The notes under the pieces are model-generated. The model was not told the origin of the DNA and made no database searches. It worked only from the letters and a program-made list of their open reading frames with translations. Below are positions 2,622 through 22,936 of a stretch of 26,484 bases of DNA, piece after piece. Source of the stretch: a virus; IMG/VR virus record IMGVR_UViG_3300035698_003689, positions 1 through 26,484 of that record. One strand, written 5' to 3'. Both the position numbers and the translations under genes were made by a program. Position 1 is the first letter of the stretch, and every line of letters starts with the position of its first letter.

Positions 2622-3136
2622 CGTAATTTCCTTTCTAGTAGTACTAAGTTTTCTTTCGGCGTCCAAAGACATCCATTCCAGGGAGCTGGCCAAACATGAG
2701 CAAGACCTCCTGCCTTTGCCCACTCCGCACAGTTCTTTGGATTGTCGTCAATAAGAATCCTACCGGGAGCTGCCAGCATTTCTTTCTCCGCACAGAGGAA
2801 ATACTCATTGGGATGGACCTGCCTTCCTAAGAAGCGGGAAAGCCAGAGGAGTTTCCCGGTCGCGCTGTTCTCTGTCAGGCAGGGGGTGGTGCAGAAGAAT
2901 ACTTTCTCTGCGTTCTTCTTACATAATTCGTACAACTCCCTGGCGCATGGAAGTTCTTCAAGGTTCTCCCAGAACGCAATGGAAGAGATTCTTTCCCAGA
3001 ATTTGTTGTTGGACATGCCCCAGAGTTTCCAGAAGTCATACACCAAGTCATCTTCCACCCATGGTTTCCCATGTGCTTCAAAGGCTCCCTTGGCGAAGTT
3101 CACCAGCACCTCATCCATGTCAAGAAACACTATCAT
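2618..3136 (-). CDS. HAD-fold 5'(3')-deoxyribonucleotidase
   Basis: The 172-residue product begins MIVFLDMDEVLVNF, the DxDxV nucleophile motif of the HAD superfamily (D6 and D8), in the form seen in 5'(3')-deoxyribonucleotidases. A later segment, ILIDDNPKNC, supplies the acidic motif IV. Family enzymes dephosphorylate deoxynucleoside monophosphates and tune dNTP pools, which fits its neighbours. The start at 3136 is chosen because the HAD strand begins there. The open frame continues upstream to 3205, but that part only translates a pentanucleotide array. No Shine-Dalgarno sequence is visible: the (GCAAA)4 end of the array lies directly before ATTATTATG. The stop is ATGA-coupled to the next gene. 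Confidence 0.8.
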   Translation of the reverse strand: MIVFLDMDEVLVNFAKGAFEAHGKPWVEDDLVYDFWKLWGMSNNKFWERISSIAFWENLEELPCARELYELCKKNAEKVFFCTTPCLTENSATGKLLWLSRFLGRQVHPNEYFLCAEKEMLAAPGRILIDDNPKNCAEWAKAGGLAHVWPAPWNGCLWTPKENLVLLERKLR

Positions 3137-13222: not shown

Positions 13223-13449
13223 TTATGGGCCTCCATTGCTTTATTGAGAAAATGAGAGATGTCTTTCAAACAGCTTTCTGAGAAGAAACAATCCCGCTCA
13301 GGAAAGAAACAGTACTTTCTCCATCCATTATGCCACTTAACTTCACCGAGGAAAATTTCGCTCCGGTTATAGCAGTACCATACTACTGTTTTTCTATTGA
13401 CCCTGCCCCTGCCTCCATCGAATCGAATGTGTTTGAATTGGGTTTTCAT
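13219..13449 (-). CDS. small conserved phage protein (WKxCFFP type)
   Basis: The 76-residue product contains VVWYCYNRSEIFLGEVKW, then WRKYCFFPERDCFFSESCLKDISHFL. I recall many short phage and bacterial proteins with this strand-turn-strand pattern ending in a CL(K/A)DI helix; none has a function known to me. The start at 13449 makes an ATGA overlap with the methyltransferase stop. The longer opening to 13545 lies inside that gene. The stop is ATGA-coupled to the UDG-exonuclease gene. A small alpha/beta domain is likely. Confidence 0.65.
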   Translation of the reverse strand: MKTQFKHIRFDGGRGRVNRKTVVWYCYNRSEIFLGEVKWHNGWRKYCFFPERDCFFSESCLKDISHFLNKAMEAHK

Positions 13450-14150
13450 AATCCAAATCCTTTTGGGACATCCTTCACGATTTCTTTTCCAATCTTCACT
13501 TCCCCACCCCCTCCTCTCGCTATTCGCTTGGCCGCTATCTCGCAATACTTCTCCTCGATCTCTATACCGATTGCCTTGCGCTGTAGATCCTTGGCGGCTC
13601 GCAGGGTCGTGCCCGATCCCATGAATGGGTCTAGGATGGTGTTGTTGGTCCCGTGTTTATCTGCCTGCTCAATACACCACGCAACCACCTCAAGCGGCTT
13701 CATTGTTGGGTGGTGCCTGGTTTCGTGCTTTCGACCAGCCTGTTGTAGCATTCCCTGCCACTTGTATGTTTTCATGCGAACGGCTTGAGGTAGGTTTGTC
13801 CATGCCATTTCGCAATCTGCGAAGTCTGTCTTTCCGTTGTCTTTGTCCCATATCAGCCAACACGATGATGGCGGCAGGGCGTAATAGTTCCCTCCGAAAC
13901 AAATGGCGCGAGGAGCCAACGTCAACATTTCCCACAATAAACCATAGTTGACTGGTTCATTGTCCCATGAATCGCACCCGTAATCTTTTGATACAGCAAT
14001 ATGCCCCCGGCTCTTATTCTTGCCAGCCGCCTCACCAATCCCATACGGCGGGTCAGTCAGCACAAGGTCGACCCGATCCAGCGTTGGCAGAACCTCGCGG
14101 CAGTCCGCGTTGTAGATCGTGACAAACGAGTCTTGGTAGTATGGTTTCAT
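13446..14150 (-). CDS. N4/N6-type DNA methyltransferase (DPPY)
   Basis: About 234 residues carry motif IV DPPY at 33-36 within VDLVLTDPPYGIG and motif I DPFMGSGTT near residue 190, followed by IGIEIEEKYCEIA. The DPPY-before-FxGxG order defines the beta group of N6-adenine or N4-cytosine methyltransferases. No restriction endonuclease gene is next to it, so it is an orphan enzyme, probably for host-restriction evasion. The start at 14150, with AAAGGA upstream, is preferred because the open frame further upstream runs into the tRNA gene. The C-terminus GFGL is ATGA-coupled to the next gene. Confidence 0.85.
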   Translation of the reverse strand: MKPYYQDSFVTIYNADCREVLPTLDRVDLVLTDPPYGIGEAAGKNKSRGHIAVSKDYGCDSWDNEPVNYGLLWEMLTLAPRAICFGGNYYALPPSSCWLIWDKDNGKTDFADCEMAWTNLPQAVRMKTYKWQGMLQQAGRKHETRHHPTMKPLEVVAWCIEQADKHGTNNTILDPFMGSGTTLRAAKDLQRKAIGIEIEEKYCEIAAKRIARGGGGEVKIGKEIVKDVPKGFGL

Positions 14151-14173
14151 GTATTCCTTTCGTGAGCAGTAGA

Positions 14174-14250
14174 TGGTGGGCAAGGATGGACTTGAACCAC
14201 CGACTTCCACATTAACAGTGTGGCGTTCTGACCAGCTGAACTACTTGCCC
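14174..14250 (-). tRNA. tRNA-Asn (anticodon GTT)
   Basis: A 77-base cloverleaf with encoded CCA. The acceptor stem pairs GGGCAAG with CTTGCCC, followed by discriminator A and CCA. The anticodon stem is CCACA/TGTGG around loop CTGTTAA, giving GTT. The T arm is GGTGG-TTCAAGT-CCATC and the D arm starts GTTC. It lies between the clamp gene and the methyltransferase, 14 bases from a pentad array, with a TATTAT hexamer 5 bases before its 5' end. Confidence 0.95.
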
Positions 14251-14342: not shown

Positions 14343-15341
14343 TTACATCAAGCTCGCGACATGAATGAATCCTTCCCCGTCCAGCTTCAGGCTGTTCTCC
14401 CCCACGGTCACCGTGTCCAGGAGGTCCAGCATGTCCACCAGGAAGTCCGGGTTGATAGAGAACTCCACCGGCTTGCCCTCATACTCCAGCTTGCACTTCT
14501 CTTTGAACCATCCGCCTTCTCCCTTGGCGTGGATCATGAGCTTGCCCTCTTCGATGGTGATATCCACCTGGGAGTCCTGGGCAAAATCCGTCTTGGCAAA
14601 GATGCCCGCTCGCTCCAGCATGCCTTTCATCCGGACAGCAGGGAACTTGATCTTGTCCCCTTCCACGTCCAGGAGAGCGCTCATGTCCGGGTACTCCTTG
14701 TCATAGGTCCGGCAGGAGAATATCACATCTCCACACTTGAAGTGGAGCCAACCACTGGAAAGGCTGTAGGAGGTGGGCTCGTACTTGAGGAGTTCCTTGG
14801 CAGCCAAGGCCGGGAGGAGAAACTCCTCATCCCCTATGGAGCCATCCATTGTGACTACGGTGAGACGGTAGTTGTCACAAGAAGTAACGAGGGAACCTCC
14901 CACGTTCAGGCAGGTCAGGACCGGCTTGGTCATATCGCTGGACACCGAGAACAGGCAGAACCGCATTGCCTTCTTGAAGTCCTTGGGGAGCTTCGTGGGT
15001 TTGCCAGGCTTGCTTACCTGATCCAGAGGCAGGTTGATCTCCGCCTCCAGTTTGATGCCAGCCCTTGAGGATTTGGTCTTGAGGAGCAGCTCGGTCTCCG
15101 TGGCCTCCAGCTCCAGCTCCTTGGCCTTGGATTTGTTGAGGAGCCTGTAGAACTCGTCGGACTTCACGGCCCCTTCTATGTCCAGGTCAGTCTTGCAGGA
15201 CACCGCGATTTCATCATTGTAGGTGGTGACCTTCCCTCCCCTGAAGATGAAAGACTTGGACTGCTCGATGATCTCCTTGCCTGCCAGTCCGGGTTGTACG
15301 CTCGCCAAGGTCTCCAGTAGTTCTTTACGATTTACTTTCAT
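14343..15341 (-). CDS. sliding clamp, DnaN-like processivity factor
   Basis: About 332 residues starting MKVNRKELLETLASVQPGL, typical of the first helix of bacterial beta clamps (often RxxLxxxLxxVxxxx). Further matches are VSCKTDLDIEGAV, SDMTKPVLTCLNVGG in the position of the RxxLxGV block, CDNYRLTVV (SDxxRLA-like) and a C-terminal SINPDFLVDMLDLL (NPxYLxDxL). These give the three repeated clamp domains, slightly shortened from the usual 366. It encircles DNA and tethers the polymerase; the clamp loader is at 8362-9279. The start at 15341 with AAGGAAG upstream is preferred over the opening to 15386, which overlaps another small gene. Confidence 0.85.
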   Translation of the reverse strand: MKVNRKELLETLASVQPGLAGKEIIEQSKSFIFRGGKVTTYNDEIAVSCKTDLDIEGAVKSDEFYRLLNKSKAKELELEATETELLLKTKSSRAGIKLEAEINLPLDQVSKPGKPTKLPKDFKKAMRFCLFSVSSDMTKPVLTCLNVGGSLVTSCDNYRLTVVTMDGSIGDEEFLLPALAAKELLKYEPTSYSLSSGWLHFKCGDVIFSCRTYDKEYPDMSALLDVEGDKIKFPAVRMKGMLERAGIFAKTDFAQDSQVDITIEEGKLMIHAKGEGGWFKEKCKLEYEGKPVEFSINPDFLVDMLDLLDTVTVGENSLKLDGEGFIHVASLM

Positions 15342-15483
15342 TTGCCACTTCCTTCCATGTTGCTTTTCTGAATGGTATTGGCCCAATGATGTCCCAGTAG
15401 GAAATCAAAAGGCATATTACATCTCTCTCTCTCTTCATCACAGGTAAATCAAATGGCTCTGCTGCGGCAAACAGGATCTTCAT
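15325..15483 (-). CDS. small MKILFA protein, copy d (frame intact)
   Basis: The fourth and last member of a tandem family. ATG 15483 has AAGGAAG upstream and overlaps the predicted end of copy c in an ATGA junction. The 52-residue product starts MKILFAAAEPFDL, has KRERDV encoded by a GA-dinucleotide run, then LLISYWDI and a tail PFRKATWKEV. It overlaps the clamp start by 17 bases. Unlike copies a-c, both conserved blocks are in one frame, so it shows what the family should look like. Function unknown. Confidence 0.6.
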   Translation of the reverse strand: MKILFAAAEPFDLPVMKRERDVICLLISYWDIIGPIPFRKATWKEVANESKS

Positions 15484-15636
15484 TTCTGCTTCCTTATAGT
15501 TTCAAACACTTTATCACAGGTTAAAATCTCTTCTTTGATATGATAGTAGGACAGGAGTCTCCTGGGGGATAGGAAGCATGGGCATCCTCTCCGTGGCTTC
15601 ATTCCCCGGAGCGGTGGTTGCAAGGTAGATCTTCAC
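15480..15636 (-). CDS. small MKIYLA protein, copy c (needs +1 shift)
   Basis: GTG 15636 has AGGAG seven bases upstream and begins MKIYLATTAPGNEATER. In that frame it stops at 15514. The block RRLLSYYHI...KVFETIRKQK lies in the +1 frame and ends at TGA 15480-15482, a perfect ATGA overlap with copy d. This 27-residue block aligns without gaps to that of copy a. The shift could occur at a run of five C just before the AGG AGA codons. A weak alternative is that the 0-frame, which also contains LLSYQ, is the product. Confidence 0.5.
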
Positions 15637-15752
15637 TTATCAACTCCTGTTTGTCTCGAAGAAAAAAGTAAGAAAATAAACGACAAGGAACTAATTGTAA
15701 CCACCGTCTCTCTCTCTAGTCCAAAAGCATCCCCTGCAAAATAAATCTTCAT
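15599..15752 (-). CDS. small MKIYFA protein, copy b (needs +1 shift)
   Basis: ATG 15752 has AGGAG six bases upstream and overlaps the predicted end of copy a (ATGA). The 0-frame starts MKIYFAGDAFGLERET and ends at 15633, where it overlaps the GTG of copy c (GTGA). The conserved block RLFSYFFLRDKQE is in the +1 frame, which stops at 15599. So this copy has evidence for both frames. Its C-terminal tail after the block no longer matches copies a and c, and it may be decaying. It shares an 18-base GA-rich stretch with copy a. Confidence 0.45.
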
Positions 15753-15899
15753 CCTCTTCTCCTAATCATTTCAAAAGCTTGTGGTATCGAAAACTGGTCC
15801 TGTTGGATATCCCAATAAGAAAGTAACCGTCTTTTGAGAATTTCTTGCCACCGTCTCTCTCTCTACTATCCCAGGAGTTCCAGCTAAGTAAATTTTCAT
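15749..15899 (-). CDS. small MKIYLAG protein, copy a (needs +1 shift)
   Basis: ATG 15899 overlaps the DpdA-like stop (ATGA). The 0-frame reads [20 protein letters not shown] and stops at 15771 after 42 residues. The conserved block RRLLSYWDIQQDQ...AFEMIRRRG is in the +1 frame and ends at 15749 in an ATGA overlap with copy b. The +1 frame has stops upstream and no start codon before the block, so it can be reached only by a shift between about 15864 and 15828, a stretch holding a (GA)5 run and a CAAAAG. Function unknown; first of four tandem paralogs directly downstream of dpdA. Confidence 0.55.
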
Positions 15900-16786
15900 A
15901 ATCCGAACCCTCCCCCGGACTTGAGCTTGAATGCCCAGGGCCACTCCGGCATGGACTTCTCCAGGTCCAGGAAGTACTTGATGTTGATCTCATCCCTTTG
16001 CTTGCAATCGTTGGACAAGCCCGGCTCAATGATCGTCTCCACCAATCTCTTCCCAGTCTCCGTCTTTTTCTCAGCCCACTTCTCATTCTCCTGGAGCTCG
16101 TAGGATGCGCTACAAGTGGCGAACTCGCTGGACCCTAGTCCATATCCCTTTTCCGCGAAATAATCCGTTATGGCCCCCTTACTGGCCGGGGAAAGGGTAT
16201 CTACGTGCTTCCCCGCTTCTCCTTTGCCCGGAGATCGAGAGGAAATGCATATTTTCCAGCTATCCTCGTCATACACATACTCACCCCCCCGAAGCCTGGG
16301 GACGTACACAGAACCCAGTCTCCCCGTGATTACCCAGGAGGTGGAGTCAACGCTGTACCAGGGGTAGCGGAGCATGAGCTTGAGGGAGGTCATCCCGAAG
16401 CCATGGATCTTCACCTTGGGGTTGCCCTTGCTGTCGCAGATGTAATCGGAGAACAGGGTATCCAGCCACTTGGCCAAGTCCCTGGTAGAGATCGGGACCA
16501 TGCCTCCTAGGGCGACGTAATCGTGATGCTTCAAATAGTACTTCAGGAAGTCTGGGTCTTCCCCATAGTGGTAACAAGGCAAAGGATTGAGGCCGGCCTC
16601 TTGCATCCTCTTTTGGTTCTTGAGGGTGGCATCAGGATCTCCAATGACATCCAGGTTGGCATAGACTGCCAGGACTTCTTTATGTTCCTGGATGAAGGCG
16701 ATGTATTCGTCCAAGTCGATCTCCACGTTCTGGGAGAATGCCGAGTAGGCTCCGCTGTCCAAGAATAATTCCACTTTGTTTTTCAT
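15896..16786 (-). CDS. dpdA: DpdA-like DNA-guanine transglycosylase
   Basis: The 296-residue protein has the TIM-barrel sequence pattern of phage DpdA/TGT-type enzymes: [13 protein letters not shown] at 8-20, [18 protein letters not shown] at 41-58, YVALGGMVP at 90-98, and [26 protein letters not shown] at 126-151 (D147 is a candidate nucleophile). In known phages DpdA exchanges guanine in DNA for a 7-deazaguanine base such as preQ0. The supply enzymes FolE, QueD, QueE and QueC are all encoded just upstream, which makes the call strong. It is shorter than many DpdA proteins and starts almost directly with the FLDSGA strand. It is ATGA-coupled to the FolE fusion and to the small-protein array. 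Confidence 0.82.
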
Positions 16787-17637
16787 CCAATCAACCTCAT
16801 AAGCTCTGCCCGGGTCTCAGGCTTGTCCATGAACACCCCGGTCAGGCTGGAGGTCTTCATAACTGCATGCTGTTTGCCTACTCCCCGCATCTTCATGCAC
16901 AGGTGCTCTGCTTCAATGATGCAGGCCGCTCCCTTTGGCGCGAGCATTTCCATGAGGGCAGTTGTGACCTGCTGTCCAAGCCTCTCCTGGATCTGCAGGC
17001 GCTGGGCGTAGATGTCCAAGAGCCGGGCGAGCTTGCTGATGCCTATCACCTTGCCATCCGGGATGTAGGCGATGTGGGCCTTGCCAATAAAGGGCAGGAG
17101 GTGGTGCTCGCAGGTGGAGTAGAGTTCAATGTCCTGGAGGAGAACGATCTGGTCACAGGCCCCGTCCTTGAAGATCTTACAAACGTCCTCAGGTTTCTTG
17201 TTGTAGCCCTGGAAGATCTCCCCCCAGGCTTTGACCACCCGCTTGGGAGTTTCCAGGAGGCCTTCCCTTGTGGGGTCCTCCCCGATGAACTGGAGCTGGC
17301 GCAGGACGGCATCCTCAATGGACTTCTCCTCGGACCCTTCCCAGGGAAACACTATCCATCCCATTTCATTGTCGACGGGATTGTCCAGCTTATTGACAAG
17401 GGCGTGAAAGCGTTTGTCCGGATAGAGCTTTTCGTACTCATCCCGCGTCTTCCCTGAATCAATGATGTCATCCAAGATCACATCCGCTATGGCAGGGTCT
17501 GTCACATTCTCAGCGAAAGTCAAGAAGCCAGCCACGAGCATTCCCCCGCGAGGAACTCCATATACTTTGATCCCAGCTTCGTCTATCAGATTCAGTCGAA
17601 CCATAATATCATTCCATGTCAGATGGGTTTTCTTCAT
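16783..17637 (-). CDS. folE: phosphoribosyltransferase-like domain fused to GTP cyclohydrolase I
   Basis: Residues 110-284 are a complete GTP cyclohydrolase [20 protein letters not shown], zinc site CEHH at 176-179 with C247, [11 protein letters not shown] and [12 protein letters not shown]. This enzyme makes dihydroneopterin triphosphate, the first step to preQ0. Residues 1-100 match a compact phosphoribosyltransferase: [12 protein letters not shown] at 25-36 and the PRPP-binding strand [12 protein letters not shown] at 53-64, ending with WIVFPWE at 94-100. The two acidic residues and the GKT of the PRPP loop are intact. The fusion is unusual. Its role may be nucleotide salvage or base handling in the deazaguanine pathway. 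ATGA-coupled to queC and dpdA. Confidence 0.88.
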
Positions 17638-18302
17638 CCCTGCTCCTCGTATGTTACTGGATCTATTCGACCATTCTCTTCAAATGCTTCCAATCTTTCG
17701 CAACAACTCCCGCATTTACCACAAGCCAATTCCTGATCCTTGTAGCAGGTCCGCGTGAGCCGGTATGGGACGCTGAGGTCCAGGCCCTTGCGCACGATCC
17801 CTATCTTGTCCGTGTTGAGGAAGGGAGCCAGGATCTCCACCCGCTTATCCGTGCCCAGGTAGATGGCCGCGTCCATGGCCTTGAAGAACTCTGTCCTGCA
17901 GTCGGCGTAGATGGCATGATCGCCCTCGTGAATCCCAATGGCTATGTGAGAAGCCTTCACGCTCCAGGCTACCCCCGCGGCAATAGAAAGGAAGATGATG
18001 TTTCTGCCGGGCACTACAGTTCTCTCCATGGAGGTGTCGGTGTAGTGGCCTTCCGGGATGTCCCCGCCACTCTTCAGAAGATCTGAATCGAACTCCCCCA
18101 TGACGGAGGACAAATCAATAAGTTGGTAGGGGGTGTTGTAGGCATGGGCTATTTCCCTGGCTGCCTTGTTCTCGTAGAGATTGTGCTTGGAGCCATACGT
18201 GAATCCTATGGCATGCACATCCCACCCCTCTTCCAAGAGGAAAGCCAGGAGGGTTGTAGAGTCCAACCCTCCCGACAAGCTTATGACAGCCTTCCTGTTC
18301 AT
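17634..18302 (-). CDS. queC: 7-cyano-7-deazaguanine (preQ0) synthase QueC
   Basis: The 222-residue protein begins [18 protein letters not shown], the PP-loop SGGxDS at 10-15, followed by [12 protein letters not shown]. The central [17 protein letters not shown] and [21 protein letters not shown] blocks are characteristic of QueC. The C-terminus carries the four-cysteine zinc site in [19 protein letters not shown]. QueC converts 7-carboxy-7-deazaguanine to preQ0 using ATP and ammonia. Length agrees with the family (about 220-230), and there is no amidotransferase fusion as in the Gat-QueC phages. It is ATGA-coupled to the Lys/Ala-rich gene upstream and the FolE fusion downstream. Confidence 0.93.
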
Positions 18303-18955
18303 TTGACTTTGTACTTCCCGTCCTTGCTGATCACGTCGATGTCGCGCTCTTTGTTGATCCGGTTAGGGACCTGGACATTGATCGTCTTGCCCATGGCTTC
18401 AGCGGCGCGCTCCGGGAATCTCTTCACCAGCTTGGCCAGGATCTTTTCTTTCGTAATCCCTTTCTTACTGGCTTCCAGGAACTCAATGATGGAAGCGATT
18501 ACCCCCGGACCTTTCTTCTTGGCCGGCTTGGCATCTTTCTTCTTCGCAGCAGCCTTCTCAGCAGCAGCTTCTTTCTTCTTCGCGGCGGCGGCTTTTGCGG
18601 CGGCCTTCTTGTCATCTTTCTTCGGGCTCACTGGCTCTTCCTCCTTTGGGGGTTCTTCATCTTTGTTCTCACCATCGTCTCCCTGGAGGGCCTTGATGAT
18701 GTCCCAGGTACCTGAACCCAGGTTCTCGTCATCGTCGTCCGAGTCGACTACCTGCTTCTCCAGCTCCTTGGCTGTGAGCTCCTTGGCTTCACGAACGATG
18801 GCGACTTCCAGTGCCTCCTCGGTCATCTTGCCCACGGTAGCATCTTCATCCTTCTCAGCACCGATTGCAGGCACCAGCCCCAGGACCTCATTCATGTCCT
18901 GTGCAGCTTTCCTCAGTGCATTCACTCTCTTCTTTCCCTCTGTGTTCTTGGGCAT
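18299..18955 (-). CDS. Lys/Ala-rich protein with C-terminal winged-helix-like domain
   Basis: About 218 residues. The first 85 are acidic and helical; residues near 90-155 are a low-complexity Lys/Ala/Glu linker (KKAAAKAAAAKKKEAAAEKA) like histone H1 or SSB-type tails. The last 65 residues (VIASIIEFLEASKKGITKEKILAKLVKRFP) look like a small helix-turn-helix domain. I do not recognise a family; DNA binding is likely. The start at 18955 has AAGGAGG seven bases upstream. An alternative ATG at 18994 overlaps the QueE stop (TAATG) and would add 13 residues. It sits inside the deazaguanine cassette, behind promoter-like motif B. Confidence 0.6.
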   Translation of the reverse strand: MPKNTEGKKRVNALRKAAQDMNEVLGLVPAIGAEKDEDATVGKMTEEALEVAIVREAKELTAKELEKQVVDSDDDDENLGSGTWDIIKALQGDDGENKDEEPPKEEEPVSPKKDDKKAAAKAAAAKKKEAAAEKAAAKKKDAKPAKKKGPGVIASIIEFLEASKKGITKEKILAKLVKRFPERAAEAMGKTINVQVPNRINKERDIDVISKDGKYKVK

Positions 18956-18986
18956 CTCGTTTCCTCCTTTGTTTCCGAATTCTCCG

Positions 18987-19016
18987 CCCTTCATTATATT
19001 ATATCACCACCCCCCT
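18987..19016 (-). promoter_or_regulatory. promoter-like motif B
   Basis: Sense strand: G-rich stretch, then GATATAATATAATGAAGGG. It shares the core ATATAATATAATGAAGGG with motif A and overlaps the queE stop codon (TAA 18994-18996). It precedes the Lys/Ala-rich gene, queC, folE and dpdA. Confidence 0.55.
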
Positions 19017-19656
19017 CGTTCAGTGCACAAATTTTATGAATCTGTACGTTTAACAGGGTTTTATAGAGTTCGTCTTTTTTCATCCATTCATACAGCTGGG
19101 CATGGGTTAGAGGGGGTGCAGCTGATATGGCTGTGTCGACTTCCGATGCGTCCAGGAAGGGAAGAACTCCTTTGGCGTGTTCATAGTCCTCCCTGGTCTG
19201 GCACACAAATTTGACAATGCCCCGGCAACTTCGGCAGAGGGGAGCGAAGATGGATATGTCCAGCATCTTGTCCGTCATCCCAGAAGAGGGAAGCTTGTAA
19301 TCCATCACCCAGTAATCCACTACACGCTGCAAGGCTGGTCCTGGAGCTATGGTGCCGTTTGTTTCCACAGTGATAGTAGCTCCTACTTTGAACTCTCCAC
19401 AAAGATCCAGGAGCTCCCCATGGTCCTGGGTTAGTGGCTCTCCTCCGGATAGGACTATATTCTTGAGTCGAATATGTTGAACAATACTATCTACAGATAG
19501 CTCTACTCCACTATCATTCTCCTGGGCTCGTTCCGTATCACACCAGGAACAGCGCAGGTTGCATCCAGCGAACCGGATGAAGGTCACCCAGGTTCCTTGT
19601 GGGACCAGTCCCACCTCCCCAGATATACTCGTGAAGATTTCCTGTACTCGCAACAT
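18994..19656 (-). CDS. queE: 7-carboxy-7-deazaguanine synthase QueE (radical SAM)
   Basis: The 220-residue protein opens VQEIFTSISGEVGLVPQGTWVTFIRFAG followed by CNLRCSWCDT, with C32, C36 and C39 in the CxxxCxxC cluster motif of radical SAM enzymes. NIVLSGGEPLTQ supplies the GGEP motif for SAM binding, and ETNGT follows. The opening FTSISGEG-like segment is typical of QueE, which contracts carboxytetrahydropterin to 7-carboxy-7-deazaguanine. The start at 19656 has AGGAG eight bases upstream, three bases after the queD stop. The last 60 residues contain an HAQLYEWMKKDEL helix and HKICALNEGG, as in family C-termini. Confidence 0.92.
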   Translation of the reverse strand: MLRVQEIFTSISGEVGLVPQGTWVTFIRFAGCNLRCSWCDTERAQENDSGVELSVDSIVQHIRLKNIVLSGGEPLTQDHGELLDLCGEFKVGATITVETNGTIAPGPALQRVVDYWVMDYKLPSSGMTDKMLDISIFAPLCRSCRGIVKFVCQTREDYEHAKGVLPFLDASEVDTAISAAPPLTHAQLYEWMKKDELYKTLLNVQIHKICALNEGGGDII

Positions 19657-19659
19657 GAT

Positions 19660-20061
19660 TTAGCTCCTCTCGTATTCTGCCCAGCCCGTGGCGGTCTCGT
19701 GGACCCGGACCTTGTGGGTCTGGGCTGCTTGTAGGGCCTCTTCAAGAATCTTATCCCACAGGTACTTCGCCATGTTCTCTGCCGTGGGATTGAATGGGAC
19801 TAGGACAACGTCATTCCCCGGGTAGATTCTTCCTGGTTTGTAGGAAGACATGAGCTTATGATCCCAGGCTTCAATGATAGGCTTCACTGTTTCCCCAAGC
19901 AGCTTGAAGTCCATAACCATCCCATCCACATTCAGTCGCTCTGCAGAGATGAATACCTCCACGATGTAACTGTGCCCATGAATAGCTTGGCACTCTTTGG
20001 AGTAACTACTCTCCAATCGGTGTGCTCCTTCAAAACGAAAAACTTTTCTGATTGTATACAT
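19660..20061 (-). CDS. queD: 6-carboxytetrahydropterin synthase QueD
   Basis: The 133-residue product begins MYTIRKVFRFEGAHRL, the usual QueD opening with a zinc-binding His in GAHRL. ECQAIHGHSYIVEVF contains the catalytic Cys and the HGHxY zinc pair. MVMDFKLL and EAWDHKLMS match the conserved DF and DHxxL blocks, and NPTAENMAKYLW and VHETATGWAEY complete the family series. It converts dihydroneopterin triphosphate to carboxytetrahydropterin. The start at 20061 has AAGGAG at good spacing; a longer opening to 20139 runs into the helicase gene and is not used. QueE follows after three bases. Confidence 0.92.
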   Translation of the reverse strand: MYTIRKVFRFEGAHRLESSYSKECQAIHGHSYIVEVFISAERLNVDGMVMDFKLLGETVKPIIEAWDHKLMSSYKPGRIYPGNDVVLVPFNPTAENMAKYLWDKILEEALQAAQTHKVRVHETATGWAEYERS

Positions 20062-20072
20062 CTTCCCTCTCC

Positions 20073-20690
20073 TTACTTGTAACTTCCTATGCAGGGCCTT
20101 CCCTGTTCGAGGCACTGCAATACATTCACTACCGTCCACACTGAAAATGCTCCCTCACGAACCAGGACCCCATTCACCCGCATGATCCCCAGGTCCTTCT
20201 CCTCTGGAGTTTGGTTGAGTCCGAACATAGCCGTGACGTGCATGTACTTTTCCTTGGACTCCGCGAAGTGAGTCATCTTGAGGAGTTGAGCATCATAGCT
20301 CTTGGAGTCAGTCTCCGTGCTGGAGATCACCAGGCACTTCCTTTTCAAACGCATGCCCGACATAGCTCCCCACTTGCCGGCCTCCTTGTGCCGGACGTCC
20401 TCAGTCCTGTTCCCTGGCTCGCAGTCCAGGTTGTCAGCCATGTCCACTATCACCACATCTGGCATGAACCCACCATCCCTTTCCCAAATGTCCAGTTGGT
20501 TATTGATGCCGGTGACGGAGATGCCGTCGTTGGGGTAGGACATGAAGCGAAACTTCCTGCCGCGGTACTTCTTGGAGAACTTCTCCCCGAACTCCAGGCT
20601 CTCCCTCCAGGTAAGAGGCTTGACCTTTTCACGGATCTTGTACCAGATAGTCCCCCTGAACTTCCTCTTTCCATTCTTGCGGCAATAGAT
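20073..20690 (-). CDS. replicative helicase, C-terminal part downstream of in-frame TGA
   Basis: This continues the frame of the gene at 20691-21632 after a single TGA. It reads IYCRKNGKRKFRG, then KIREKVKPLTWRESLEFGEKF, MSYPNDGISV, Walker B PDVVIVDMADNLD, RLKRKCLVISSTETDSKS and a C-terminal VNGVLVREGAFSVW. This is the second half of the RecA-fold ATPase, needed together with the Walker A in the first part. Internal restart at ATG 20543 is possible, with only a weak AGGAAG upstream. The uninterrupted coding character over this stretch suggests the stop is recent, artefactual or read through. Confidence 0.65.
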   Translation of the reverse strand: MYCRKNGKRKFRGTIWYKIREKVKPLTWRESLEFGEKFSKKYRGRKFRFMSYPNDGISVTGINNQLDIWERDGGFMPDVVIVDMADNLDCEPGNRTEDVRHKEAGKWGAMSGMRLKRKCLVISSTETDSKSYDAQLLKMTHFAESKEKYMHVTAMFGLNQTPEEKDLGIMRVNGVLVREGAFSVWTVVNVLQCLEQGRPCIGSYK

Positions 20691-21953: not shown

Positions 21954-22157
21954 TCACCATGTTCTGTCGGGCAATGTGATATATTCATCACGTTTGCCTT
22001 TGCAAAATTGACACGTATTATTCACCTTCGGATCGGCCTTCGTGAAATCTCTCTTGGCTACCCACAGTCCCTTGTCGAGCCACTCCTTAACAGCGTCAAC
22101 AGACTTGCTGAATGCAGTGACCCTTTCACAGTGTTGACACTTGGCGACGTACATCAT
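21954..22157 (-). CDS. small zinc-ribbon protein
   Basis: The 67-residue product begins MMYVAKCQHCERVTAF and later has NTCQFCKGKRDEYI. The two CxxC pairs are about 40 residues apart, a typical zinc-ribbon spacing with a helix between (VDAVKEWLDKGLWVA). The start at 22157 has AAAGGAG seven bases upstream and overlaps the methyltransferase stop (ATGA). The in-frame opening to 22196 is inside that gene and is rejected. Function unknown; possibly a transcription or DNA-binding accessory. Confidence 0.6.
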   Translation of the reverse strand: MMYVAKCQHCERVTAFSKSVDAVKEWLDKGLWVAKRDFTKADPKVNNTCQFCKGKRDEYITLPDRTW

Positions 22158-22936
22158 GCCTGTTCTCCTTTGTGGTGTTCTGTCGATATGTCGCAAATAC
22201 GGGTCTTAGCCACTTCGCACCATTCCTCATCATTATCTATGCCGATGAATTTCCTGTTCAGGTTTCTACAGGCCACCCCCGTGGTTCCGCTTCCCATAGT
22301 GAAGTCCAAAACAGTATCCCCCTCGTTGGTGTAAGTCTTAACGAGGTACTCCATCAATTCGATAGGCTTCTGGGTTGGGTGTTTGGTTTTCTCTTTGCCT
22401 GATGCTGTATTGAACTTCTGCCAGCTTGACGGAACACGCATCTTTCCAAGCGTTATATCCTTGCCCTTAAATGTCCCGTATGCCCTTGTTTTGTTTCCCT
22501 TGTCTCTCTGGACTTGACCAGACATACCAATTCCCCCGCCTGTCCTCGGTTGCATCTGACGGTTATACGTCCACTTGCCCTCAGAGAATATCAAGACTAC
22601 TTCATGCTCCTTCATAGGCTCTCTGACCGTGTTGGCAAAGTTGCTCCCTCGGTTCTTGATCCATACCCATTCATGTCGGAACATGCTTGGGTTGCTCATC
22701 ACCAAAGCAGAGCTGAACGGCTGAGATGCGCTCATCGCCACTACCCCTCTACTTTTTAGAAGATACTTAATGCCACCCCACATCGGCTCAAATGGTATCA
22801 CTGCGTCCCACTTGCATCGCGTGGTGCCGTAGGGAGGGTCCGCAAGCACCATGTCCACGGGGGGCAACTCTTTCATCACTTCTATGCAGTCACCATAGTA
22901 TAATTCCGTGTTCTCGTTTTGGTAATACAGGGCCAT
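22154..22936 (-). CDS. N6-adenine/N4-cytosine DNA methyltransferase (beta group)
   Basis: The 260-residue protein has DPPY at 33-36 in DMVLADPPYGTT and VLDFTMGSGTTGVA near residue 220, with KHPTQKPIELMEYLV between (the motif before FxGxG). The DPPY-first order is the beta arrangement of N6-adenine and N4-cytosine enzymes. AAGGAGG lies seven bases before ATG 22936. It differs in sequence from the other methyltransferase at 13446-14150, so the window has two distinct orphan enzymes. No endonuclease partner is visible. A likely role is defence against host restriction or regulation of phage DNA transactions. Confidence 0.87.
   Translation of the reverse strand: MALYYQNENTELYYGDCIEVMKELPPVDMVLADPPYGTTRCKWDAVIPFEPMWGGIKYLLKSRGVVAMSASQPFSSALVMSNPSMFRHEWVWIKNRGSNFANTVREPMKEHEVVLIFSEGKWTYNRQMQPRTGGGIGMSGQVQRDKGNKTRAYGTFKGKDITLGKMRVPSSWQKFNTASGKEKTKHPTQKPIELMEYLVKTYTNEGDTVLDFTMGSGTTGVACRNLNRKFIGIDNDEEWCEVAKTRICDISTEHHKGEQA

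Follow-up and report, generated by a model that had tools for sequence, protein, structure and literature searches.

Four small genes that lie in tandem between dpdA and the sliding clamp gene of a virus (IMG/VR virus record IMGVR_UViG_3300035698_003689, positions 1 to 26,484; this 26,484-nucleotide (nt) stretch is hereafter referred to as the window) each encode a free-standing version of the N-terminal ~50 residues of DpdA, a phage DNA-guanine transglycosylase. The array very probably represents phase-variable contingency genes, the products of which correspond to strands 1 and 2 of the DpdA barrel, would be switched by slippage at simple repeats and, as we infer, act on DpdA. The initial annotation, made from the sequence alone, had described a +1 frame change in three of the four genes and had explained it by programmed +1 frameshifting, by decay or by a switch that works through repeat slippage; it did not recognize the two conserved blocks of these genes as the N-terminal module of DpdA. 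The relatives of the array strongly support a switch by slippage, with frame changes in both directions, many tract types, one-unit length differences and a near-identical contig pair, and the pattern of repeats and frames, as far as sequence can tell, is the signature of phase variation and not of programmed +1 frameshifting or ordinary decay.

Organization of the array and its neighbourhood

The array, dpdA, the clamp gene and the preQ0 pathway cluster all lie on the minus strand. The dpdA core (15896..16786) begins at barrel strand 3, without the N-terminal strand 1–2 module, and is followed by the module genes a (15749..15899), b (15633..15752), c (15480..15636) and d (15325..15483), and then by the gene for DNA polymerase III beta, the sliding clamp (14343..15341; PF02767/PF02768). 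Reading of the window DNA and its translations bore out the four starts of the initial annotation (15899, 15752, 15636 and 15483, that of c being GTG), the N-termini MKIYLAG, MKIYFAG, MKIYLAT and MKILFAA, and the exact ATGA overlaps of a with b and of c with d. Gene a (subtype AGTPG...WDI) is broken in frame, its second block (RRLLSYWDI...RRRG, 27 residues) lying in +1; its assignment as one gene is based on the match of the joined frame to single-frame relatives and to the fused DpdA N-terminus. Gene b is out of frame as well: its frame 0 stops at a GTGA overlap with c, and its +1 block, RLFSYFF, continues into c. Gene c (subtype APGNE...GMLDIPRRLLSYYHI) likewise carries its second block (RRLLSYYHI...RKQK, 27 residues) in +1, whereas gene d (subtype AAxEP...LLSYYDI..IPFRKxTF) is in frame through its LLISYWDI block. 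Judged by frame, a, b and c are predicted to be OFF and d ON in the window.

The three frame changes had been thought to fall at the same place. This holds for a and b, in both of which the frame changes at an 11-nt (AG)n tract 35 nt past the start (15854..15864 and 15707..15717, respectively), but not for c, where the frame-0 residues NEATERMPMLPIP match NEAWRERGMLNIP of the in-frame relatives, agreeing through ...MLPIP, and the shift lies ~30 nt further into the gene than in a and b, most likely at a C5 run (15564..15568), a weaker repeat than the others. Gene d contains a 13-nt (GA)n tract (15422..15434) that is in frame in the window. The window tracts, of 11–13 nt and C5, are thus short and lie toward the lower limit of the lengths known for contingency repeats. 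Our first assumption that all shifts are GA-run events was dropped, since the DNA shows G, C, A and TA runs and c shifts elsewhere.

The preQ0 pathway cluster (16783..20139; PF01227, PF06508, PF04055 and PF01242) contains genes for FolE (16783–17637), QueC (17634–18302), a QueE-like radical SAM protein (18994–19656) and QueD (19660–20139). As preQ0 is the base inserted by phage DpdA (PMC6884629), these four proteins would supply the base for the DpdA of the window. The window FolE has ~100 extra N-terminal residues with a YGVPRGG motif, which by eye have the look of a phosphoribosyltransferase-type domain, and FolE with such a phosphoribosyltransferase-like N-terminal fusion also occurs in several relatives. 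Two genes resembling site-specific DNA methyltransferases, with DPPYG motifs recognized by eye, flank the deazaguanine cluster (13446–14210 and 22154–22936).

Relationship of the small genes to DpdA

None of the four small proteins was assigned to a family in PHROGs or Pfam, and queries with copy a and two other subtypes returned no convincing stand-alone module from 50,697 named phage records; copy a gave weak chance matches to microvirus capsids, which were rejected, and the two other subtypes matched nothing. The window dpdA matches phrog_887 (queuine/DpdA transglycosylases) with E=1e-56, only from profile position 56 on, and alignment with module-bearing DpdAs revealed that the dpdA genes beside modules in relatives carry both blocks fused at the N-terminus. 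In a profile–profile comparison with hhalign, 64 stand-alone modules matched 20 fused DpdAs with a probability of 97 and E=9e-11, and copy a shares 60% identity with the start of the fused DpdA of locus L053 (E=3e-16).

The model of this fused L053 DpdA (pLDDT 88) has strands at residues 2–6, 24–28, 55–59, 88–92, 129–131, 148–152, 183–187 and 202–204, which we interpret, by their order, as the eight barrel strands; strands 1 and 2 come from the module. A sequence search of solved structures gave no match, but structural comparison aligned the fused model from residue 1 with tRNA-guanine transglycosylase (TGT) from residue 40 on (Z 18), and also with the solved DpdA 7ui4. Because the fused model aligns with both enzymes and takes its first two strands from the module, the module most likely corresponds to the first quarter of the TIM barrel (strands 1–2, β-α-β-α). 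A model of a lone module was poorly ordered, without strands (pLDDT 68), which is compatible with a part that needs a partner and proves nothing. The modules thus match the N-terminus of DpdA in sequence and comprise strands 1–2 only; they lack the catalytic aspartates and barrel strands 3–8, and the DSGAF and later motifs reside in dpdA. The modules are predicted not to be enzymes by themselves.

When copy a was read across its frame change, nine relatives were found in viral contigs, with 43–71% identity over the whole length. Eight of the nine encode the protein in one frame, so the joined protein is real; the remaining relative, L008, changes frame in the opposite direction at this GA run, and a constant +1 shift is therefore not the rule. 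Scans with the module, DpdA and three subtypes yielded about 150 loci, many of them overlapping, from which 79 non-redundant loci (520 kb) were kept. A two-block profile gave 199 hits, representing 198 module copies, on the gene strand of these loci and none on the opposite strand, and the two-block match is therefore not due to chance. A locus holds up to six copies, frequently with ATGA coupling, and by eye the copies form at least seven subtypes, three of which include a, c and d of the window.

The modules are co-located with dpdA, and the two also appear to be linked in their distribution, which bears indirectly on a putative association of module and core. Among the 24 loci that have a truncated dpdA and no module directly upstream of it, 23 contain one or more free modules at another place in the locus. 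On the dpdA tree, 17 changes of the fused state are needed, at least 9 of them forced by well-supported branches, and fusion or fission has therefore occurred many times; the same subtypes are found both fused and free. From the retention of modules, the repeated fusion or fission and the shared subtypes, we infer that the modules work with DpdA.

Frame changes and repeat tracts across the family

The frame is broken between block 1 and block 2 in 28 of the 198 copies (21 in +1 and 7 in +2), and the other 170 are in one frame. Most of the frame changes coincide with a simple repeat, namely (GA)n, G8–9, C8–9, (TA)n or A6, and the linkers as a whole contain GA, G7–9, C7–9, TA, CT and TC repeats, all in the same part of the gene. 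Counted blind to frame, the linkers hold 59 of the 85 simple repeats while making up 20 kb (3.9%) of the 520 kb (binomial p=1e-62). Copies with a linker repeat are more often out of frame (19/55) than those without (9/143; Fisher p=2e-6), the latter nine lacking a repeat at the threshold used. The linkers of in-frame copies contain 36 repeats, as compared with 8.7 ± 2.4 in synonymous codon shuffles, indicating that the repeats are kept beyond what the amino-acid sequence needs.

In the subtype of copy a, the distance from the start to RLLS is 75 nt in 10/10 in-frame copies and 73 or 77 nt in four out-of-frame copies, which have exactly one GA unit fewer or more than the in-frame genes; the distance in window copy a is 73 nt. 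A frame-setting repeat within the reading frame, as at contingency loci, is therefore seen both in the tracts of a, b and d and in these ON and OFF lengths one unit apart. L062:4088 and L085:4088 represent the same module gene in two phages, 99% identical downstream and separated by a ~29-nt linker deletion; neither version is in frame, and the frame is not the same in the two. The module at L035:3903-4022 is in frame through block 2, has an AG15 tract beyond this block and is cut short, which suggests that the C-terminal tail may be subject to switching by tracts as well.

Tract-length polymorphism between close strains was found in a related phage group represented by five contigs. L130 and L156 are identical at 3129/3130 positions, and their sole difference is G7 (OFF) in L130 versus G8 (ON) in L156, a comparison to be read with caution since the L130 tract is ~120 nt from the contig end. 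Between L157 and L158, one gene has G8 (OFF) versus G9 (ON) and another C8 (ON) versus C9 (OFF); these tracts are internal to the contigs, and the two contigs have substitutions elsewhere too. The differences between these contig pairs look like the pattern expected of slipped-strand phase variation in a population. The end of L130 (L130:1-10) falls in a C tract that in the near-identical L156 belongs to the preceding module gene, as if the assembly had broken at a variable tract. A viral contig scan for variants of the window tract gave no match to a second strain of the phage of the window, and tract variation in the window is for this reason deduced from relatives.

Programmed frameshifting, in which the ribosome or RNA polymerase slips at the repeat and makes a fixed fraction of joined product despite the genomic frame, is an unlikely explanation for the family. 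A single conserved site and direction, which it would entail, were not found: shifts occur in both directions at the same tract type, aligned DNA has no common shift site, the tract kinds are several, most copies are in one frame, and the genomic tract length itself varies, even between near-identical contigs. On the other side stand the slippery nature of G8, A6 and GAGAGA, the conservation of the downstream blocks in out-of-frame copies, and the orthologous modules L003:1432 and L095:4400, which have a common frame change at a CAAAAAAC run and are the best candidate in the family for real ribosomal or transcriptional slippage. Some product may nevertheless arise from OFF genes through slippage of the ribosome or the polymerase.

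A reading in which redundant paralogues decay at mutation-prone repeats, and the repeats play no part in switching, would fit small and redundant genes, single modules that may be dispensable where dpdA can be fused or separate, and the nine out-of-frame copies without a clear repeat. We nonetheless regard it as very unlikely, because the conserved blocks of OFF copies score at least as high as those of ON copies (21.9 versus 21.0), the in-frame genes hold fourfold the synonymous expectation of repeats, which is not a product of decay, and the dpdA core has one frame change in 78 loci; this sole case is a second, damaged dpdA-like gene (L038:2092-2676). Sequencing or assembly error at the repeats is hardly credible: although no type of error is more common than indels in homopolymers and dinucleotide runs, and modified G in GA-rich DNA could conceivably disturb sequencing, the same tract positions recur in independent metagenomes, the tracts are equally long in in-frame genes, and the excess of repeats belongs to the sequence rather than to the reads. 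A GA motif has been reported for some deazaguanine-modified phages; we considered this motif as a general cause and dropped it, because G, C and TA tracts serve equally.

Putative role of module switching

The slippage-switched array can be pictured as follows. A simple repeat sits between strand 1 and strand 2 of each module, and slipped-strand mispairing during DNA replication would add or remove repeat units and thereby bring strand 2 into frame or take it out, with the result that phage genomes within one population would differ in the modules they make. The modules may then affect DpdA in one of two ways, by supplying in trans the part of the barrel that the truncated enzyme lacks or by replacing its active-site face, and switching would determine if a 7-deazaguanine base is placed in the phage DNA, or which sites are modified. 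In the simplest picture, some of the progeny would, through module switching, have a DpdA with altered activity or a different choice of sites. A more specific version, which we put forward tentatively and consider somewhat doubtful, is that whichever module is ON supplies the missing part of the truncated DpdA in trans, each module conferring a different site preference or activity, and that combinatorial DNA-modification states against host restriction thus arise within a clonal phage population. Phage 7-deazaguanines shield DNA from restriction (PMC6884629).

The array has partial counterparts in known systems. Bacterial restriction-modification genes such as mod and hsdS encode phase-variable methyltransferases, in which repeat tracts or rearrangements similarly switch a DNA-modification activity or specificity part, whereas the present case involves a phage base-exchange enzyme with separate quarter-barrel modules, and a change of specificity is only putative here. 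The phase-variable genes of Campylobacter phages reportedly concern host-receptor binding and use poly-G tracts. Poly-G phase variation in these phages (Sorensen et al. 2021 Cell Rep 35:109214, as cited in PMC10877375 and PMC8713573) resembles the present array, as far as the citing papers describe it, in that hypermutable repeat tracts in a phage lead to mixed populations; here, by contrast, parts of a DNA-modification enzyme are concerned, several kinds of tract occur, and the family extends across many uncultivated phages. Phage DpdA (PMC6884629; structure 7ui4) belongs to the same enzyme family and is accompanied by a preQ0 gene cluster, and fused relatives carry the module as strands 1–2, whereas these strands are absent from the DpdA of the window, whose gene precedes the four individual module genes.

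Reports of phase variation are few for phages, whereas in bacteria the phenomenon is familiar. A limited literature search found no paper on phase-variable DpdA parts; phage phase variation itself is already known, but an array in which parts of a DNA-modification enzyme are phase-variable appears to be new. If the proposed function is correct, a switchable array of enzyme parts would illustrate how the DNA camouflage of phages becomes diverse within a single population, and a TIM barrel that draws one quarter from small, exchangeable proteins would be unusual in enzyme evolution. Small phage genes that are called broken, or that gene finders overlook, may belong to a large family and be switched off.
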